Virus record (IMG/VR): IMGVR_UViG_3300022205_000003
Location: 1-40,965 of that record
Source: a virus
DNA length: 40,965 bases
Reading direction: 5' to 3' (one strand)
Below the pieces are notes generated by a model that was not told the DNA's origin, searched no databases, and worked only from the letters and a program-made list of their open reading frames with translations. A program made the position numbers and the translations under genes. Positions 2,587 to 39,001 of this stretch are shown here, piece by piece (the first letter of the stretch is position 1; every line of letters begins with the position of its first letter).

Positions 2587-3967
2587 AGCGTTCTCTTCGT
2601 TTCTTCTTTAGGTGGGCTTTCTTTAGATCGCCGAAACTGACGTTAACGACGTTTCCAGCGGAGAATTTCTCATTTTGACTCATTGGCGTAGACTGAGGAA
2701 CGCTTTGCCTCCATGAGAGAGACAGGTATCTAAAAGCATCTGCCGGATGAGAATGCTCATCATGGACCGGCTCATCAGAAAACTTCCTAGCCGCTTCGTC
2801 GTATTTTCGATGGTAAGACTTTAAATGCTCAAGACCAATACCGCATTTCTCGCTATCAAAAAAACACCTTGGGAAGGTAGCTCTAGCCGCCTGAATGCCT
2901 TTATCTCGACCCATATTGGGAACAAGAGCAAATTGCCCTACATCTTCCGCTATAAGCTGCTGAAGGATTGACTTACCCCCCATACCCAGCCTTTTTGGTT
3001 TCGCGTCGTGAGGAAGCCAATGAGTCTTATAGGTGTATTTTTTATCCCTTAATACTTGGGCGTAAAAAGGGATTTCTTTGAAATTATCCTGATAAAAGTC
3101 AATAATTCTTAATTCGTTTGCAATAATCTGGTAAAACCAGATAGATGTTGCGTCATCTCTACCTAAATCCCATGCGGTAAATACGGGATAGGTATTATCA
3201 TAAGGGACGCTGGTGACTTGGCCTCTTTGAACGATTTTTGCAATGTCTTCGCCCCAGACAGACCCAGGAATAGCCGCCTCAAAAGAGCAATAGTATTCCT
3301 GTAGCCAGATGGCTTTACCAAAGACCTCTCCATGCTGAGCCTGAAGCCTTTTCAGCTCACCCAAAAGCTGTTCTTGAGTAAAAACCCCTGTTTGGTCTAC
3401 GGTGAGGATTTCACCAAACCAGTCTTTTTCTGAAATGGCGTCATCAACAATAGCTTTAAAATGATTCTTGCCTCTGGGGGTGCCATTGAAAATGGCCCAT
3501 CCGTTGTTTTCTAAAAGAATGGGGCTTAGAAAACCCCATGAGTTGGGATTCGATAGAGAGTACTCAGAGTAAGTTATTCCGTATGGAGTTGACCCTACCA
3601 ATGCGTTATAATTATCAGACCCCATTAATTGGAAAGTAGACCCATTTATGGTCTCAATCTTCATTTCCTGGTTTAGCTTATTCTTTATAATCTCAGACGG
3701 GAATGCCTCGTCAATCCTCTTCACCCCTGTATGGGGATTGACCGCATCCCACACCGCCTTCCGGCACTGGTTGTACTCAGGAAGCATGTACCAGTAGTTC
3801 CCAACATGCTCAAATAACGCGCAAGCATTATGGTTCAACATTACCGCGTCTTTCCCAGAGCGACGATGCCAACAGGCTACCGCTCTCTTGCCTCCGTCCC
3901 CTAAGTAGTTCCAGAGAGGCTTCTGATAGTCACGGGGAGACCAATTGTTTGGAAGGGAGATATTCAA
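2579..3967 (-). CDS. terL: Terminase large subunit (TTG start)
   Basis: 462 residues. This ATP-driven motor and nuclease packages DNA through the portal. The N-terminus WSPRDYQKPLW is followed by the variant Walker A HRRSGKD at about residues 34-40. A Walker B-like ITYSEY lies near residue 132. The RNase H-fold nuclease is suggested by FTAWDLGRDD near 265, WLPHDAK near 318 and DEHSHPADAF near 418. The only suitable start is TTG at 3967, preceded by GGGGAT; the next ATG would remove the Walker A motif. The start lies 38 bases inside the GIY-YIG gene, so expression is probably tied to it. Confidence 0.95.
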   Translation of the reverse strand: MNISLPNNWSPRDYQKPLWNYLGDGGKRAVACWHRRSGKDAVMLNHNACALFEHVGNYWYMLPEYNQCRKAVWDAVNPHTGVKRIDEAFPSEIIKNKLNQEMKIETINGSTFQLMGSDNYNALVGSTPYGITYSEYSLSNPNSWGFLSPILLENNGWAIFNGTPRGKNHFKAIVDDAISEKDWFGEILTVDQTGVFTQEQLLGELKRLQAQHGEVFGKAIWLQEYYCSFEAAIPGSVWGEDIAKIVQRGQVTSVPYDNTYPVFTAWDLGRDDATSIWFYQIIANELRIIDFYQDNFKEIPFYAQVLRDKKYTYKTHWLPHDAKPKRLGMGGKSILQQLIAEDVGQFALVPNMGRDKGIQAARATFPRCFFDSEKCGIGLEHLKSYHRKYDEAARKFSDEPVHDEHSHPADAFRYLSLSWRQSVPQSTPMSQNEKFSAGNVVNVSFGDLKKAHLKKKRRERYG

Positions 3968-5721: not shown

Positions 5722-5931
5722 ATGCAAGCACACAACTTATCTAATAATGATTATCTGGAGTTTGATCCCGGCACTACCCCTGAATATGCGGTCGCTTATG
5801 GTTATTTCGCAAGCAATAACATGACTTCGCAATTCTTTGCAATGAACCAAGATGGTGACACATCATGGAAAAGCAAGTTGATTTATGGCGAAAAATCAGT
5901 CTCTATGGGTGATTGGGCCGCTATTATTTAG
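5722..5931 (+). CDS. Small hypothetical protein
   Basis: 69 residues, acidic and aromatic, no known motif. The start is set by AAGGAGGTAATT directly before the ATG, in the same repeated leader as the preceding gene. Followed by a 7-bp hairpin before the next gene. Confidence 0.7.
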   Translation: MQAHNLSNNDYLEFDPGTTPEYAVAYGYFASNNMTSQFFAMNQDGDTSWKSKLIYGEKSVSMGDWAAII

Positions 5932-5942
5932 CCTATCCACTG

Positions 5943-5962
5943 TAGCGCCTTGCGGGGCGTTA
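5943..5962 (+). terminator. Hairpin between two small genes (weak terminator or processing site)
   Basis: TAGCGCC pairs with GGCGTTA (one G-U pair) around a 6-base loop. There is no run of T after it, so intrinsic termination would be weak. An mRNA-stabilising or processing role is equally possible. Confidence 0.35.
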
Positions 5963-6000
5963 TAGGGAAAAAGTTAATACTTAACTAAAGGGGATATATT

Positions 6001-6213
6001 ATGAAAATCACCAATACATACAAAGGATATACAGGGGCTGAATTACTGGCTATGACTCACGACGACAACCCAATGGTCGATGTTGACGGGACTATATTAC
6101 AGGTTCTGCCCGGCACCCTCCCTTTTGTTAATCGCTGGGAGATTAGCTCGGTTGACGACGCTACCCATGTCAGCGTTAAAAGCCGATTTGACACTGTCAT
6201 TGTCCGCATATAA
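6001..6213 (+). CDS. Small hypothetical protein
   Basis: 70 residues (starts MKITNTYKGYTGAELLAMTH). Compact alpha/beta, no recognised motif. The leader ACTTAACTAAAGGGGATATATT before the ATG is another copy of the cluster's repeated leader. Confidence 0.7.
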   Translation: MKITNTYKGYTGAELLAMTHDDNPMVDVDGTILQVLPGTLPFVNRWEISSVDDATHVSVKSRFDTVIVRI

Positions 6214-6868: not shown

Positions 6869-6901
6869 ACTTTAATCTATTAACCTATGGAGGGTTATAT
6901 A

Positions 6902-7312
6902 ATGAATACACTAAACTTAATGTCTAAATTTGTTGCTCAGCGTCCCGGCCTGTCTTTTGCCGACTATGGGGATTCTAAATACTATAATCAGGACTATCGC
7001 AAAATCTTACAGGCTAAGCATGACTTTGAGCGTATGTCGCGTCATATTGTTATGACTACAAGTATTATCGATGCAGACCTTGTAAAGGCCTCTCAGAGCG
7101 CATTTAGTGGTCGTTTAACCATTAGCGGGGACACTATCGAGTATTGCGCTGGGCAGTATTTCCCTACTGAATACCGTGCCGCTGCCTGTGCGGTCTTGGC
7201 TTATGCTCTCTGGCAGTATTGGCGGTCTTGCGGGCATCAGACCTATGAAGATATCCAGAAAAAGGCTCGTCAAGCCCTTGGTCGTGGCCTCGCTTCACGC
7301 TGGTTTAGTTGA
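6902..7312 (+). CDS. Hypothetical protein, largest of the plus-strand small-gene cluster
   Basis: 136 residues. Start at 6902 after GGAGGGTTATATA. The N-terminal part is polar with several Tyr; the C-terminal half (AAACAVLAYALWQYWRSCG, then KARQALGRGLASRW) is helical and amphipathic. No family recognised. Its TGA overlaps the ATG of the next gene. It sits downstream of the second palindromic element. Confidence 0.75.
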   Translation: MNTLNLMSKFVAQRPGLSFADYGDSKYYNQDYRKILQAKHDFERMSRHIVMTTSIIDADLVKASQSAFSGRLTISGDTIEYCAGQYFPTEYRAAACAVLAYALWQYWRSCGHQTYEDIQKKARQALGRGLASRWFS

Positions 7313-8140: not shown

Positions 8141-8349
8141 ACAAACAAGCGCAATTAAGAGCTATATTAGCCGAGATCCAGACCTCCCGTGGCTTATCTT
8201 GGCTAGAGTCTAAACACTATGTCTGTGGGCTTCTCGTTAAGTCTCCGGTTACGATGGACAAGTGGTTAAGTTCGGGTAAGTATGCTCAGGATATCCCGGA
8301 TAATGAGCTTGAAAGACTTACCTTGAAGTGGTCAGCAGATAAGCCATAG
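8137..8349 (+). CDS. Small hypothetical helical protein
   Basis: 70 residues (starts MNKQAQLRAILAEIQTSRGL), helical, with MDKWLSSGKYAQDIPDNELERL in the second half, reminiscent of small HTH-like regulators. Last gene of the plus cluster; it ends 33 bases from the convergent coiled-coil gene. Confidence 0.6.
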   Translation: MNKQAQLRAILAEIQTSRGLSWLESKHYVCGLLVKSPVTMDKWLSSGKYAQDIPDNELERLTLKWSADKP

Positions 8350-8882: not shown

Positions 8883-9181
8883 GCGAAAGTTCCATCGTCA
8901 AAGTAGATTGTAGCCCCAGGCTTAATACCAATAGTCAACATTACGCCTGAGTTGACTTTAGTTGAAGATCCTGAAGTAGCAGCAGTCCCCACCCGATAAT
9001 AAATGTCAGCGTCCGGATTGATCATTAAGTATCGGGTTTTTCCGGTTACAGTTAAATTTCCAGCGGTGTTTACTGTTACGTCTGAAGCAGTTTCATTTCC
9101 GTCGTGCATTCCAGCTTGCCCCAGTTTCCCGCCTTGGTCTCCTGCTAAATATTGGTATTGTGTGACATTTACTGTTGCCAT
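8879..9181 (-). CDS. Small beta-rich virion-associated protein
   Basis: 100 residues, Gly/Thr/Val-rich with many short strands (TASDVTVNTAGNLTVTGKTR). Composition matches phage decoration or fibre-accessory proteins. It shares its first bases with the stop of the preceding 46-residue gene (TAATG). Confidence 0.6.
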   Translation of the reverse strand: MATVNVTQYQYLAGDQGGKLGQAGMHDGNETASDVTVNTAGNLTVTGKTRYLMINPDADIYYRVGTAATSGSSTKVNSGVMLTIGIKPGATIYFDDGTFA

Positions 9182-11172: not shown

Positions 11173-11663
11173 TAAGTGTACTCAACGACCGGAAAGGATA
11201 ATTGTGCGTCTCCCGGACTTGCTGTGCCGCCAGTTGCGTCCCTTGTACCTCTTAAAACAAAATACTCATTAGGCTGGATGCCGTCTGCTTGGGCGTTAGT
11301 GAAATCGCGTGTTGCATAGTCCAATTCCCCTGCTGCGCTGGCTTCTGTGGCTAGTGTTGCTTGGGCGGTTGCAAACGTGAAGGATTCTATCGTATCGGCG
11401 TCATCCGCGATACGATACCATGCCCATTCCCAATCACATGTTTGAGATCCAACAAAGGTAGCAAATTTCCACCCCCACTTCACTGTAATGTTAGATGTTC
11501 CGTCGTAGACCCCAGACATATACCCATAATAATAGATGCTTTCTGTTGTTGTATCGTCAAACTCAGTAACCGGGTACGGGCCTGCTGTGTAATCTGGCGT
11601 AGCCGGATTTGAGCTTGGCACACCTACCGCATAGATCATCGCTATTAAATCACCGCTTGCCAT
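11172..11663 (-). CDS. Beta-rich virion-associated protein
   Basis: 163 residues, Thr/Tyr/Asp-rich (TPDYTAGPYPVTEFDDTTTE; DWEWAWYRIADDADTIESF). Overlaps both neighbours by one base. No family recognised; context suggests a structural protein of the adhesion cluster. Confidence 0.65.
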   Translation of the reverse strand: MASGDLIAMIYAVGVPSSNPATPDYTAGPYPVTEFDDTTTESIYYYGYMSGVYDGTSNITVKWGWKFATFVGSQTCDWEWAWYRIADDADTIESFTFATAQATLATEASAAGELDYATRDFTNAQADGIQPNEYFVLRGTRDATGGTASPGDAQLSFPVVEYT

Positions 11664-12031
11664 TATGTTCCCAACTTATTGCGAATAGCTGTTTTTAGTT
11701 GTGCCAATGTTCTATTTGGTAGGGAGTGCTGAGTTCTGAGGATATTTAATTCGTCAACTAAAACGCTGGCTAACGCTCTTATAATGTCATTAAGGTTATC
11801 TATTTGATTAACAATAGCGTCTTTTGTGGTTTCTAGTTCAGCGGCGTCCAGCGCGTCTCTTGCGGCAGCGCCCATCAGTGTTACTGTATCGCCTGTAATA
11901 ATCCAGTATTTTGACTCAAACCCTGTTACGGCTGACAGGTCTGGATTAATGATCCAGTCTTCTATCGGATAGTCAGGGGTATTTACAGATTGAATGTATT
12001 TTTTGGTTGTTCGATGCAGTACGTTTGCCAT
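11663..12031 (-). CDS. Hypothetical structural protein, first gene of the adhesion cluster
   Basis: 122 residues with a short beta-rich N-terminal half (WIINPDLSAVTGFESKYWII) and a helical C-terminal half rich in Leu, Asn and Ala. It is the first gene after the large non-coding RNA region, whose structured part begins only about 10 bases beyond its ATG. Confidence 0.65.
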   Translation of the reverse strand: MANVLHRTTKKYIQSVNTPDYPIEDWIINPDLSAVTGFESKYWIITGDTVTLMGAAARDALDAAELETTKDAIVNQIDNLNDIIRALASVLVDELNILRTQHSLPNRTLAQLKTAIRNKLGT

Positions 12032-12040
12032 GGATGTCCT

Positions 12041-13085
12041 TAAAAAACCAACACCCGCTAGAGGTGTGGGATTAGCGGGGTTGGTGCTCTATTAGAGCAA
12101 TATACCAAGGAGGAGGTATTAGGTTCCACCGTACTACAGAGATAGCCCGATTCATGCACCACGTTATCGGGTTGCTTGGTGCAAATTGCTTCTCTATCTC
12201 TACGGTGGAGGTATTTGATATTGGCCAATTCTGAACATTGTAGGCTGAGTTCGTGGCTTAGCCTGACTGCTCCCACCTTGCTATGTCCCCACGACGGATA
12301 TAGCATTTCATTCTGGAGGTGCGGCTACTACCAAAATAGTATTTGATATTGACCGCTTGCCGGAACTCGGGATTTCTCCGTCAGGCGTTTATGGTGCGCC
12401 ACACACAATATCAAAACTCCCCTGCTCAACGTTATACAGCCAACAGGGAGGCTGTTATTTGATATTGGCCTTTCTCAAGGCTGTAGGCTGTCATACAACA
12501 GAGGTGCAGTGGCCTAGCAATATCAAAACTTGTCACATATATTATATGTGTATTAATTTAGTCCGGTCGAACTCTCTAAATGCACGAAGTTGATGGCCTC
12601 TAATCATTTAGATCGTGGTGGTAAAGACCGGCATCCCTCACTCCACCGTTGCCCTCAGTCAGGCAGGGTATCAATCTGCTTCACCTGAGTATATTAGTTC
12701 CCCGTATTACCACCAACGGGGTCAGGTGGTTGATGTCAGGATAGTATTTGTAGGAGGAGTCTATATCCTGCCCGACGTGTCCGGCCTCTATTATCCGGGG
12801 GTACGCTATCCCGTGACGTGACTCTCCACATGACATCAAATTGCTTAATTTATATACCGTATTGCACACGGACGGTTTCTGCTTTCGCGTACTTCCAATT
12901 TCCCCAATCTATCCGGCATCACCCCACTAGGGAAGGGTTTACTAGCCAGAATACCCTGTAAGATATCCTAGATGCCTTCTTGTTTCCCTGCGAACTACAG
13001 AGGCAGGGACTCATATTTGATGCCGGGCATGACGAACAGCACCTCCTCACATCAAATTCTTTTTACTAATCTACTAAATTAGTAT
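12041..13085 (+). ncRNA. Candidate ~1-kb ornate structured RNA (GOLLD/ROOL-like in character)
   Basis: No credible gene lies here; reading frames have no ribosome sites and non-protein-like composition. Perfect or near-perfect helices fill the segment: 12048-12060/12073-12084 (12 bp), 12085-12090/12094-12099, 12126-12132/12202-12208, 12138-12145/12194-12201, 12242-12249/12257-12264, 12279-12288/12296-12305, 12342-12351/12406-12415, 12354-12364/12377-12387, 12458-12467/12518-12527, 12730-12738/12831-12839, 12985-12991/13003-13009, 13015-13022/13050-13057 and 13064-13070/13078-13084. Interleaved pairs give three pseudoknots: 12146-12151/12166-12171 with 12155-12161/12177-12183; 12417-12424/12444-12449 with 12436-12441/12450-12455; 12575-12582/12605-12612 with 12583-12587/12613-12617. 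Three long helices contain G-U pairs on the plus strand that would be A-C on the minus strand, favouring plus. The family is not identified. Confidence 0.7.
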
Positions 13086-13143
13086 TTAACAGGGAGAGGA
13101 ATTACAAGTCTACCGTCGATTCTAGGTCTAATCGTACCTTCTG

Positions 13144-13695
13144 TCAAACTTTATAGCCGTTTTTTCTTAATAGTTTTCTAGCCGCTTTCTTTGCTCTATA
13201 TAGCTTTTCGGTAATATACTTAGCTTCCTTGCCCCATTCTTGCACAAAGTTTCCTAGCTCCCATTCATGCTCATATTTGTATATTATAATACGGTAATAT
13301 AGTGGATTCATTTCAGAAAGTATTTTATTTACTTTTGACCAGTATTTATTCCCTCCATAATTAGGGGTTATAGATGTCCTGCTAGTTGATTCTTTCGGGA
13401 CATTTAACTGTGAAATTCTCCACCTCCATTCTCGATATTCCTTCTGGACAGCTTGGTTTAGTTCTTTTGGATCGTAATTCAAGGCGATCAGCGCCTTTCT
13501 AATCTGTTCTTTCTTCTTTCTGTCTATCCTGTTTGTATATGCCTTCTCTGGGCTGTTGTAGCCCTCCAGGGGAGACTTTCTCTTGAGACTAAGGCCATCC
13601 ACTCCCCAGCGGCGATAAGCCCCGTAATCGACTAAGAAGTCCTCTAGAGAGTCCTCCGACTTTTCACGGAATAGATGGGTAGACAATTCGCTCAT
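13144..13695 (-). CDS. Candidate late transcription regulator (position of lambda Q)
   Basis: 183 residues, basic. The C-terminal third (YYRIIIYKYEHEWELGNF, then a helix rich in Lys/Arg/Ala) resembles region-4-like DNA-binding ends of phage late activators such as the ArpU/RinA/Q-type groups. It is the last gene of the leftward early operon, downstream of NinG, the position Q occupies in lambdoid phages. The role is inferred from position and composition; no catalytic motif is visible. Starts in an ATGA overlap. Confidence 0.5.
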   Translation of the reverse strand: MSELSTHLFREKSEDSLEDFLVDYGAYRRWGVDGLSLKRKSPLEGYNSPEKAYTNRIDRKKKEQIRKALIALNYDPKELNQAVQKEYREWRWRISQLNVPKESTSRTSITPNYGGNKYWSKVNKILSEMNPLYYRIIIYKYEHEWELGNFVQEWGKEAKYITEKLYRAKKAARKLLRKNGYKV

Positions 13696-13904: not shown

Positions 13905-14206
13905 TATTCCTCCCAGTCTACTGATAGGTTTCTCATGCTTCCTGGTATTGGGGTCTCAAACTTATTCAGTCTTTCTGTTTCTCTCATCCATTTTTTTATT
14001 TCCTCGGGATGAGTGTTGATATTAAACGTCCCTACCATGTCAAACCGTCTGATATGGGTGAACTCTGTGTTTTTATGACTCATGGCCTCGTGTGAGATAT
14101 ACCGTCGTTTATTTCTGTCCCACCATATTGTGACTGGATTGTCTCCGTACTGGAACTTCCATTCAGCTATGAGCTTGTCTAGGTTCGTTTCGTTATGCGT
14201 TGTCAT
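13904..14206 (-). CDS. Hypothetical protein
   Basis: 100 residues starting MTTHNETNLDKLIAEW. The ATG at 14206 overlaps the stop of the small membrane-protein gene (ATGA), which is why I prefer it to an upstream GTG at 14290. Contains IWWDRNKRRYISHEAMSHKN, Trp- and Arg-rich; no known family. Confidence 0.65.
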   Translation of the reverse strand: MTTHNETNLDKLIAEWKFQYGDNPVTIWWDRNKRRYISHEAMSHKNTEFTHIRRFDMVGTFNINTHPEEIKKWMRETERLNKFETPIPGSMRNLSVDWEE

Positions 14207-14331
14207 TTTTGTGGCTTTGTACAGTCTATTTTTATTTTCTCTACCGCTGTGAAGTTTTCTATCCCATAACATGTTGTCAAAGATAGACACATCACTACCA
14301 GCGCAGCGAACATCAAACCATTATCGGTCAT
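14203..14331 (-). CDS. Tiny membrane or lipoprotein-like protein
   Basis: 42 residues. A hydrophobic stretch (LMFAALVVMCLSLTTC) ends in Leu-Thr-Thr-Cys, a poor match to a lipobox, then a polar tail. Start and stop both lie in ATGA overlaps with ninG and the next gene. Could be a small exported lipoprotein or a single-pass membrane peptide. Confidence 0.55.
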   Translation of the reverse strand: MTDNGLMFAALVVMCLSLTTCYGIENFTAVEKIKIDCTKPQK

Positions 14332-14744: not shown

Positions 14745-14850
14745 GCTGTTTCCTGTATAAGTCTCTAGCTCTCTCGGCGTTCTCTATGGCTATTTCCTGG
14801 CAACGGAGATTGTTTTTCATTTCTTCTATTATTTTATCCCAGCAGTCCAT
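14659..14850 (-). CDS. Small helical protein overlapping ninG
   Basis: 63 residues; the first 37 (MDCWDKIIEEMKNNLRCQEI...) form an amphipathic helix, and the last 26 lie inside ninG in another frame. Its ATG shares a base with the radical SAM stop (TAATG), which supports translation. The 86-base overlap with ninG is unusually long. Confidence 0.5.
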   Translation of the reverse strand: MDCWDKIIEEMKNNLRCQEIAIENAERARDLYRKQHGQKENQSQDSRGSCKDCSEIRQVKGSG

Positions 14851-15851
14851 TATACTGCCTTAATATTAAGTTTGCTTCCGCCGAGTATTGCGTTTCCACA
14901 AGTTACCAATCCATCCTCTTCATCCATTGAAGGAACAAATACCAGTACGTCAAAACCTGCCTTCTTTAAATCTTCTTCTGGTTTTTTGTATGGCAAATAC
15001 GAATCATATCCGCCTATTGTTTTGATATTGTTTTCCCTGCACGCTGTATTATTATGTATTGGCGTTATTTTACACATAAACTTTTCCCGGTCAAACAAGA
15101 TAGATAATAGCTCTGCATCAATAATATAATCCGTAGAATACGCAAAGTTTAAGCAATACTTCCTTCCGATTGGCTCAGGTAAATCATCGGCCAATGCTGC
15201 AAATTCTGTTAACTCCATTTGGTCGCCGCCAAACATTTCTGTCCTTTGTTTTGGGTCTGTTGAGTTTATGCTAAACTGTAGTCCGGCTTGTCCATTATAT
15301 ACATCGTTTTTTATATAACACCATTCCTGTATTCTATCCTCAAGACGATTAAACTTTCTTGGTAATGATGTTGTTAGTACTGGATGCAATGTTTCTATCC
15401 TTAGACCTGTTTCTTTTTGAATTGACCGCTTTTCGTGATAGAGCCATACTGCAAATTTAAATACGTTCTCATTAAATACCGGCTCACCCATTCTGGCGAA
15501 ATGAATATTTAACCTTTCTGTATATTGCTCTTTTGGGAATAATCCAATCGCTGAATATAACTGTTGCTGCAAATCATCAAATGAGGCATTACCACGGAAT
15601 GGCACGTTTGGTACATCGCAAAAATTGCAGCCCATGACGCACCCGTATTGCGTACTTAATGTAATTACCCACTTCTCTGAAAGAGGCATACATTTCGTAT
15701 TAGGCACGCCATTTATTTCTTTTTCATACCCAAGGAAGTCTGCTTTTACATTATGCGCCTTTCCATAATCACCGATTGAAAGTGTCTCCAGCCGTCCTTT
15801 TGAATATTTATCCGTGAATAAATATCCTGTTGGTAATTTATTAATGTTCAT
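14850..15851 (-). CDS. RlmN/Cfr-like radical SAM protein
   Basis: 333 residues. STQYGCVMGCNFCD carries the radical SAM Cys-x3-Cys-x2-Cys (Cys71, 75, 78), in a setting like the SSQVGC...FC of RlmN/Cfr. ARMGEP at about 119-124 matches the GMGEP SAM-binding motif, and LVTCGNAI near the end (Cys318) matches the methyl-carrying Cys of the C-terminal ACGQL motif. RlmN/Cfr methylate adenosine in 23S rRNA (and tRNA). Odd point: the second catalytic Cys, seven residues before the cluster in RlmN, is Thr64 here. Start at 15851 overlaps the preceding stop (ATGA). Target unknown: ribosome, tRNA or phage RNA. Confidence 0.8.
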   Translation of the reverse strand: MNINKLPTGYLFTDKYSKGRLETLSIGDYGKAHNVKADFLGYEKEINGVPNTKCMPLSEKWVITLSTQYGCVMGCNFCDVPNVPFRGNASFDDLQQQLYSAIGLFPKEQYTERLNIHFARMGEPVFNENVFKFAVWLYHEKRSIQKETGLRIETLHPVLTTSLPRKFNRLEDRIQEWCYIKNDVYNGQAGLQFSINSTDPKQRTEMFGGDQMELTEFAALADDLPEPIGRKYCLNFAYSTDYIIDAELLSILFDREKFMCKITPIHNNTACRENNIKTIGGYDSYLPYKKPEEDLKKAGFDVLVFVPSMDEEDGLVTCGNAILGGSKLNIKAV

Positions 15852-16039
15852 CACTCCACCTCACATGCGCCACTGGCGGCTTCTATTTGTTCGTTTCTTA
15901 AATACCTTACCTGTGCTAGGGCTGATTCAAGATGGTACTCAATAAGTGTTAGCTGTCGTTTATCAGTATAGTTAGCCGCCAAGCCGCAGTCTCTTCTAAG
16001 GCTTCTCCACATATCGAGCTTTTCTACGTCAGAGTGCAT
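15851..16039 (-). CDS. Small helical hypothetical protein
   Basis: 62 residues (MHSDVEKLDMWRSLRRDCGL...), helical. The start at 16039 lies inside the end of the DUF551-like gene; earlier in-frame starts would overlap it much more. Ends in ATGA with the radical SAM gene, so coupled to it. Confidence 0.6.
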   Translation of the reverse strand: MHSDVEKLDMWRSLRRDCGLAANYTDKRQLTLIEYHLESALAQVRYLRNEQIEAASGACEVE

Positions 16040-17713: not shown

Positions 17714-17796
17714 ACCTAATCCTCCTGAGCCTTGATATTAAGTTACCCTTTCTTACTTGTCTAATAGAATGTTTTTATTACCTGCCAAGAGCCAGT

Positions 17797-31504: not shown

Positions 31505-32624
31505 CAGGTAAATACCCGTACTTTTCTTTAAATTGAGATCTTATTTCTGGCGTGTTGTTTTGCATTAAAAAATCTACGGCTTGAGGCGGAGCAACCTTTT
31601 TAGCGGCCTCTTTAGGTGTTGCTTTTTCTTTAGCGTTTAAATGCTCATATTTGCGCCATATTTTTTCCATTGACTCTAATGCGGCCAACCTTTCCTCTTT
31701 AGGAACGCTCCTATCTCCGACTTTAGCAGCCATTTGCTCATACATCAGCCGATCAAAATCAGATTGTGGGCCTTCCATGCGTGGCATCTTAGCCGTCAAG
31801 GCTCCGCCTATTGCTTCCAGTTGAGCAGCCTGTTTAGCACTTTCAGTTGACACACCTACCTGCCTTGCCGCCCAGTCTACGGCTTTCCCAATACCGCTTT
31901 CAGTAGGCTCACCAGTTTTAAGAATCTTTTTAGCCTCATCAATAGTTTCGCCAATTCCAGTCATGCCAAAGGAGCGTTTTGCTTCAAATTCAGCAGTCTT
32001 TTTAGCTCCTGAAACCGCTGCTTGAGTTTTTGGATCGTATTTCGGCGATAGCATTCCTTGAGACTCGTCTAGCTGCCATTTTCCTTTTCTGTGATCAAAC
32101 ACCATAGGAACAGTTTTCCCATCAATCACTACGTCTTTTGGCGTAAAGTAACCGCCTCTATCGCCTTTTTGTGATAATCCTATATATTTAGCCATCTCTG
32201 CTGTTTCAGGACTTGAGGCAGCTTGCAACATCGCTTTTTGAGGATCTCCCGGTACGGCAGGGACAGCCTCTTGCATTACCCGCTGACCTTCTGGGAACTC
32301 GGGTGGCCCCATTAAGGGTTCTGTAACAGCAGGGGCTCCGGGCGTCCCCATCGCTGTCTTCATAACTGCCTCGCTAAGCCGCTTTCTCTTCTCTTCCTGT
32401 TTGTCGATAGCGTCCTGGATTTTCTTCTCGCTCTCTTTCATTCCTTGTCTTGCAAGCAAGGCTTGGCCAATACTTGTAAGCCCCTGAAGGGGAGAATAAG
32501 GGACAGCCTGGGAGTATTGGCCTCCAGTGTATTGGGTTCCTTGAGGGGTTACTGCTTGCTGCATGAGGGCTTCCTGAAGCCTTCTGCGGCGCATTTCCTG
32601 ATTATAAATACTTTCTGCTTCCAT
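31497..32624 (-). CDS. Virion DNA-ejection-type protein
   Basis: 375 residues. Gln-rich N-terminus (MRRRRLQEALMQQAVTPQGT), Pro/Ala-rich middle (PGAPAVTEPLMGPPEFPEGQ) and a C-terminal helical part ending EKYGYLPDE. Low-complexity, soluble and helical like T7/P22 ejection proteins. The ATG at 32624 shares a base with the previous stop (TGATG). Confidence 0.65.
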   Translation of the reverse strand: MEAESIYNQEMRRRRLQEALMQQAVTPQGTQYTGGQYSQAVPYSPLQGLTSIGQALLARQGMKESEKKIQDAIDKQEEKRKRLSEAVMKTAMGTPGAPAVTEPLMGPPEFPEGQRVMQEAVPAVPGDPQKAMLQAASSPETAEMAKYIGLSQKGDRGGYFTPKDVVIDGKTVPMVFDHRKGKWQLDESQGMLSPKYDPKTQAAVSGAKKTAEFEAKRSFGMTGIGETIDEAKKILKTGEPTESGIGKAVDWAARQVGVSTESAKQAAQLEAIGGALTAKMPRMEGPQSDFDRLMYEQMAAKVGDRSVPKEERLAALESMEKIWRKYEHLNAKEKATPKEAAKKVAPPQAVDFLMQNNTPEIRSQFKEKYGYLPDE

Positions 32625-38316: not shown

Positions 38317-38970
38317 CTATATAGACTTATTGCGTGTATTTGGTGTTGTTAGAGTCTTTTCTACTGACCATCCACGGCTTAATCTTCTTCTAATACAAGC
38401 AGCAGACAAGCCAGTGTAGTCGGCCCATTGAGATGATGTCTTTTTCTTTCCGTTGAAAGTAATAACAAGATTTGTTCGCCTATTATTACCCTGCTCTTTC
38501 CTTGTGGCCCATCGACAATTCTCTTTTGAATATCCGAGCGAGTTGTTTATCCTATCAAGCGTCTTGGATGGTGGACGATTACCCATGTCTTCGTAAAAGT
38601 TGCTGAAATCCAGCCATCTCTTACAGACTGTAATTCCTCGTCCACCATAGCTATGGTAAGCCGTATTATTTGGATTTGTGCATCTTTGAATCATTGTTGC
38701 CCAAGTCCTATAAATTTTCGACTCACATAAGCCATGTTTAACAGGTTTTATCTTTGTTAAACACCCGCATGATCTGGTTCCGCCCTTACCCTTTAAAGCC
38801 TTACTTAAAGAATGGCTAGAAACGATAATTTTGTTACCACAATCACATTTACACAGCCAACAAGCCCTTTTCACACTTCCTTCGACTTTATTGGCTACTC
38901 GCTCGATTACTACTAATTTACCCACTCTTTGACCGATTCGGTCAATTACAGTTAATCCTCTTGGCTTCAT
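38317..38970 (-). CDS. Zinc-finger/HNH-type homing endonuclease-like protein
   Basis: 217 residues. An N-terminal zinc segment (CWLCKCDCGNKIIVSS, then RSCGCL at about 43-75), a central HNH-related block (TWATMIQRCTNPNNTAYHSY; ITVCKRWLDFSNFYEDMG; LDRINNSLGYSKENCRWATR) and a C-terminal HTH-like repeat (SQWADYTGLSAACIRRRLSR). This arrangement is common in free-standing selfish phage endonucleases. Start at 38970 after GGAG. It is inserted between coat and decoration genes and appears to have its own promoter. Confidence 0.85.
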   Translation of the reverse strand: MKPRGLTVIDRIGQRVGKLVVIERVANKVEGSVKRACWLCKCDCGNKIIVSSHSLSKALKGKGGTRSCGCLTKIKPVKHGLCESKIYRTWATMIQRCTNPNNTAYHSYGGRGITVCKRWLDFSNFYEDMGNRPPSKTLDRINNSLGYSKENCRWATRKEQGNNRRTNLVITFNGKKKTSSQWADYTGLSAACIRRRLSRGWSVEKTLTTPNTRNKSI

Positions 38971-39001
38971 GATATACTCCAATACAAATAATGTACTGTT
39001 T

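Follow-up and report, generated by a model that had tools for sequence, protein, structure and literature searches.

In the late leader of lambdoid phages, Q loads at a promoter-proximal pause and the polymerase then passes terminators (PMC7171158), and StxS, which derives from the stretch between PR′ and tR′, is a functional late leader that acts in trans (PMC7873438). GOLLD and ROOL are phage-borne RNAs that often lie close to tRNA islands and form cages, and in GOLLD the 3′ region is conserved and the 5′ region less so (PMC12286853). Phage ICP1, which has no tRNAs, carries an ORF-less non-coding RNA of about 800 nt beside its lysis cluster (gp139) (PMC7567579). Here, we describe a segment that resembles both the late leader and the ornate RNAs and, by the tests done, belongs to neither.

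Phage setting and non-coding status

The segment fills a slot of about 1.1 kb between two minus-strand genes, one ending at 13144 and the other starting at 12031, in an IMG/VR virus record of 40,965 bases (“the window,” meaning the whole stretch analyzed). By its portal, terminase, and major head proteins, the window groups with 40-kb phages that have distant kin such as Myxococcus phage Mx8; among annotated phages, the closest to it is an uncultured one from Manatee Spring (MW202489; 62% for the head protein), and we gathered 80 related loci via the major head protein. The operon downstream of the RNA holds lectin- and tail-like genes and no lysis genes. Two other genes of the window deserve mention: an HNH endonuclease of atypical codon usage beside a virion structural gene (38317-38982), which is likely a homing insertion, and a radical-SAM-like protein (phrog_24834; 14850-15854) that is 72% identical in locus L003 and 53% identical in Bacteroides phage Versailles, with only weak resemblance to RlmN/Cfr-type enzymes.

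An earlier note on this DNA had described the segment as a large modular structured RNA without protein-coding capacity, and this description is supported by the statistics below and by one syntenic homologue. Open reading frames within the segment score negative in codon usage, whereas all neighboring genes tested score positive, which bears out the absence of coding capacity. With pairing partners sought within 250 nt, the segment contains 13 perfect Watson-Crick helices of at least 8 bp (2.6 ± 1.5 in dinucleotide shuffles) and nine of at least 9 bp (0.4 ± 0.6), about half of these nine being combinations of one duplicated stem and four being distinct (P1alt, M2, P2-loop, and P4). As a control, 11 other stretches of the same window hold 0 to 2 perfect helices of at least 9 bp each. 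The three H-type pseudoknots that had been noted are also there: exactly three with both stems of at least 6 bp, against 0.53 per shuffle. For the whole segment, the minimum free energy z-score is −4.8 on the minus strand and −4.0 on the plus strand; since 240-nt local windows are only moderately stable (mean z of −1.9), the signal is carried by the long perfect helices more than by local energy. The segment is thus confirmed as a real, non-coding, and structured element.

Strand and transcription signals

Because the flanking genes, the terminator, and the promoter all face the same way, the RNA most likely lies on the minus strand and runs from about 13112 to 12042 (Table 1). This leaves the segment of the earlier note in place and reverses the order of its elements, all directional signals being minus: what had been taken for the first helix (12041-12085) would be the 3′ terminator, and the AT-rich hairpin described as final would belong to the 5′ leader. 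The limits of 12041-13085 likewise hold for the segment, with the start probably a bit further out, near 13112.

Table 1. Features of the window RNA and its flanking genes, in the order of minus-strand reading
Feature	Position	Strand	Details
Putative Q-like / sigma-region-4-like regulator gene, 183 aa	13144..13695	−	Immediately upstream of the RNA; homologue in G001 syntenic and 46% identical
Sigma70-like promoter	13119..13147	−	TTGACA-17-TAGAAT; 11/12 consensus match; overlaps stop codon of the 183-aa gene
Structured non-coding RNA, ~1.07 kb	12042..13112	−	Limits from inferred start to terminator
Hairpin P1	13015..13057	−	AUUUGAUGU/GCAUCAAAU; stem longer in both arms in G001: UUGAUGUUGAC/GUCAACAUCAA
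P1 apical part	13023..13048	−	GAGGAGGUGCUGUUCGUCAUGCCCGG; 26/26 identical in G001
P1alt, alternative long-range helix	12913..13026	−	CCGGCAUCA (13026-13018) / UGAUGCCGG (12921-12913); mutually exclusive with P1
Module M2	12730..12839	−	Closing stem UUGAUGUCA/UGACAUCAA
P2	12616..12728	−	CACCUGA/UCAGGUG and CCCCGU/ACGGGG hairpin; hairpin kept in G001
Module A	12458..12527	−	Three-way junction; closing stem UUUGAUAUUG/CAAUAUCAAA
Module B	12342..12415	−	Three-way junction; closing stem as in module A; paralogue of A and of G001 P3
Third CAAUAUCAAA 3′ half, without partner	12214..12223	−	Precedes P4; overlaps palindrome AUUGGCCAAU
P4	12125..12209	−	UCCACCGUA/UACGGUGGA; UGUAG bulge conserved
Intrinsic terminator	12042..12085	−	ACCAAC.CCCGCUA/UAGCGGG.GUUGGU + UUUUU; fold z −5.06
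122-aa gene, first of downstream operon	11663..12031	−	Start codon ~10 nt past U-tract; AAGGA ribosome site ~12036-12040

The promoter-like site between the 183-aa gene and the leader recurs at the same position in a related phage, G001 (IMGVR_UViG_3300022306_000006; described below), as TTGAAA-17-TATTCT (positions 14104-14132 of its locus L105; 9/12 consensus match). At the other end of the window leader lies a predicted intrinsic terminator, strong and of textbook form, beyond which the minus strand reads AAGGA and then the start codon of the 122-aa gene. The end signal is less clear in G001, where the clearest U-rich terminator-like hairpin (14162-14222) precedes the RNA, so that the logic of termination may differ there.

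We consider it very unlikely that the transcript comes from the plus strand, antisense to the operon, as the orientation of the earlier note would have it. That strand folds well and a signal scan found three short terminator-like sites on it, but the same scan returned no promoter-like site there, and the minus strand folds better and carries both neighboring genes as well as the best promoter and terminator, with the same orientation in G001.

Modular architecture

The predicted folds consist of modules that are either closed hairpins or three-way junctions (Table 1). The loop of the P2 hairpin, UGGUGGUAA (12715-12707), is complementary to UUACCACCA (12624-12616) and could pair with it. In the interior of P4, the window RNA has an H-type pseudoknot (UGCACCA/UGGUGCA and CCCGAU/AUCGGG), whereas G001 has a different hairpin within the same outer helix. 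Both RNAs also contain ACCUCCUC (window 12117-12110), an 8-nt complement of the P1 loop that is possibly there by chance. Antisense targets of the P1 loop longer than 10 nt were not found in either phage genome. A leader peptide starting from the AUG in the P1-loop stretch AGGAGGUG...AUG was considered and rejected, the frames diverging straight after the loop (MPGIKYESLPL versus MPGQHQA).

A shorter homologue in a related phage

Homologous gaps in relatives, which the earlier note had proposed to align, yielded one syntenic homologue with conserved blocks: in a DNA search of 49 records (larger relatives and three others), only G001, whose head protein matches that of the window at 86%, has related sequence, in colinear pieces. 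The G001 RNA lies 3′ of the homologue of the 183-aa gene and 5′ of the next operon, in the same orientation as in the window. At about 340 nt it is about three times shorter, and its predicted fold is a clean chain of closed modules. Common to both RNAs are P1, the CCCCG/CGGGG hairpin of P2, the UUUGAUAUUG/CAAUAUCAAA module (P3 in G001), and the 3′ helix P4. Relative to the window, P1 of G001 has gained 4 nt in each arm, giving an 11-bp stem. The window RNA is longer through added modules, A and B having the closing stem of P3 and folding as three-way junctions too, and the unpartnered CAAUAUCAAA copy is, by context, orthologous to the 3′ arm of P3. An equivalent of P1alt was not found in G001.

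To what extent do these stems covary? Among the five distinct closing stems compared (P1, M2, A/B, and P3), three of the ten pairs differ on both sides, and 94% of cells are paired in register versus 27 to 60% when the stems are slid; the covariation score is, however, reached by 24 of 500 shuffles, in a set that is small and partly paralogous. We take this covariation of paralogous closing stems to support the helices without proving them.

The most conserved part of the RNA between the window and G001 is formed by the apical loops, not the stems. The conserved ends (P1 loop, P3 closing stem, and P4) look selected, with closed modules coming and going in the middle; because the ends are conserved around a variable, module-built middle, the comparison suggests that selection acts on the RNA as a folded object. 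This bears on the possibility that the inverted repeats merely resemble RNA helices and belong to a DNA-level element, such as a packaging site, an origin, or a recombination hot spot. Inverted repeats are the same on both strands, and the plus-strand fold is indeed nearly as good (z of −4.0), but the helices are nested in closed modules, promoter and terminator point in a single direction, the minus strand shows a U-G wobble in P1 and a G-U wobble in P3 of G001, and conservation peaks in the apical loops instead of the stems. We judge a DNA-level element improbable.

The window and G001 share further short stretches elsewhere. Runs of 26 and 23 nt within window positions 17744-17778 recur unchanged at two different places in G001 (8298-8323 and 8958-8980), possibly as a shared regulatory site, and the short stretches 5928-6003 and 6872-6906, outside structural genes, are 80 to 97% identical to G001.

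Searches for further members

The covariance-model search that had been proposed with GOLLD, ROOL, OLE, HEARO, and raiA was run against all 4227 families of Rfam 15, OLE, HEARO, and raiA included, and matched the window RNA to no family. The GOLLD and ROOL models gave no match at the gathering threshold or at E ≤ 10 in either the window or G001, and the sub-threshold matches to other families are far below gathering scores (e.g., Ref84, E = 3; c-di-GMP riboswitch model, E = 1.5). The earlier suggestion of a GOLLD/ROOL-style family is thus not supported as membership, with no credible Rfam match up to an E value of 10 in either RNA. A divergent GOLLD or ROOL that Rfam misses would fit the length, the phage location, and the ornate style, but it seems most improbable given two members without a match up to E = 10 and a window without tRNA genes; G001 has one tRNA, about 5.4 kb upstream of its RNA.

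In BLAST searches, the window RNA (queried against phages) and the short homologue (queried against phages and plasmids) gave chance matches or none. An exact-motif scan of viral contigs with the P1 loop and the P4 arm found only G001; the P1 loop also matched at four other sites, none of them in the setting of such an RNA, and these appear to be chance matches. Scans at the protein level with the 183-aa gene found only G001, a P4 covariance model run against the relatives’ loci and records hit only the window and G001, and neither the genome contigs scanned nor a scan with the 163-aa tail gene added a member. We read the segment as one of two known members of a new family of large phage RNAs with late-leader-like behavior.

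Some relatives carry other folded non-coding elements. A second, strongly folding element whose sequence is unrelated to the window RNA occurs in G008 (L168, 19056-19903), G011 (L126, 7480-8000), and G009 (2650-3017). It follows a resolvase-like gene in all three and is also preceded by a CCCCGG terminator-like hairpin in G008 and G011, between which it shares long near-identical blocks with modules swapped or absent; it has no Rfam match (G008/G011) and no phage match. In L128 (G012 31545-32087), a stretch of 543 nt with a longest ORF of 33 aa folds very stably (mean z of −4.1).

The upstream gene and a candidate mechanism

The 183-aa protein of G001 matches PHROG 79 (phrog_79), “antitermination protein Q-like,” over residues 122-181 (E = 1.4e-4), and it resembles Sigma70_r4_2 under the Pfam cut-off (E = 6.6e-4) and the NCBIfam sigma70-ECF family (E = 0.0013). 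The window protein on its own gave no clear match, the Pfam Q family did not match the 183-aa protein, and AlphaFold modeling with two sequences was poor (pLDDT of 46), with no hit in a fold search. From its homologue’s matches, the gene is likely, but not certainly, a Q-type antiterminator or a similar late regulator.

Taken together, the Q-like gene, promoter, and terminator ahead of an operon have the layout of a lambdoid late leader. The best reading of the locus, to which we give about an even chance, is a folded leader RNA of a Q-controlled phage operon that also has a role in trans. From the promoter at the end of the Q-like gene, host RNA polymerase would transcribe the modular RNA, about 1.07 kb long in the window and about 340 nt in its relative. 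It would stop at the intrinsic terminator that precedes the 122-aa gene, except when the Q-like protein has loaded on it and allows it to read on as far as the lectin and tail-type genes. Once terminated, the RNA would be more than a by-product and may act in trans as a folded molecule, resembling GOLLD/ROOL or StxS in style. That the RNA is transcribed and terminated, that the Q-like protein controls it, and that it works in trans are all deduced from sequence features. In favor of this reading are the helix excess, the syntenic homologue with its conserved blocks, the two-arm gain in P1, the covarying paralogous closing stems, the folding into closed modules, the promoter-like sites, the terminator, the Q-like match, the lack of a coding signal, and the precedent of StxS; against it count the small number of members (two), a Q-like call that depends on one homologue’s weak matches, the G001 hairpin that precedes the RNA, and downstream genes that are lectin/tail-like, the terminase-portal genes lying past an oppositely oriented stretch.

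Next in rank comes a purely cis role, in which the fold of a long 5′ leader governs either read-through at the terminator or how the 122-aa gene is translated, acting as an attenuator or as an RNA antiterminator like HK022 put. Because only about 10 nt separate the terminator from the next start codon, the operon hardly has its own promoter and is presumably reached by read-through, and P1 and P1alt, being mutually exclusive, could form a switch. Yet 1 kb of RNA with many independent modules far exceeds what a cis antiterminator needs, its size varies threefold, no counterpart of P1alt was found in G001, and there the U-rich terminator-like hairpin comes before the RNA. We therefore regard a role in cis alone as possible but rather doubtful.

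Beyond the leader with a trans role, it is tempting to speculate, though only tentatively, that the two RNAs represent a new class in phages, in which the 5′ hairpin and the 3′ domain stay fixed and whole closed modules come and go between them, with a size that tripled between related phages and a place in the late-leader slot of a Q-type switch, as a large folded and possibly multimeric RNA. If so, molecules could pair with one another through the palindrome AUUGGCCAAU and the third stem half that lacks a partner. Ornate large RNAs would then be tied to late-leader transcripts, at least one of which is already known to work in trans.

Comparison with known systems

To our knowledge, no function is known for large phage RNAs like GOLLD and ROOL, and an unrelated large RNA in a defined regulatory slot, together with a natural relative of 340 nt, offers a compact and testable starting point. 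Like GOLLD, the window RNA is phage-borne, about 0.8 to 1 kb long, and ornate, and it combines a conserved with a variable part; unlike GOLLD, it is conserved at both ends and variable in the middle, has no sequence or model match, and has no tRNA in the window. With ROOL it shares the phage location, the large size, and the pseudoknots, but neither a model match nor a tRNA island. The ICP1 RNA, another large transcript without an ORF, is a similar unexplained case, likened here by description only. The same holds for HK022 put and other processive antitermination RNAs, which also lie ahead of a terminator that needs read-through; the put sites are shorter than 100 nt. The lambdoid late leader (Q gene, pR′, 6S/late leader RNA, tR′) agrees with the locus in its succession of regulator gene, promoter at the gene’s end, non-coding leader, intrinsic terminator, and operon, and, through the G001 protein, in the Q-like match of the regulator. 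It differs in that the window RNA is about 1 kb long and ornate, that of G001 being three times shorter, and in that the genes downstream are lectin/tail-like.
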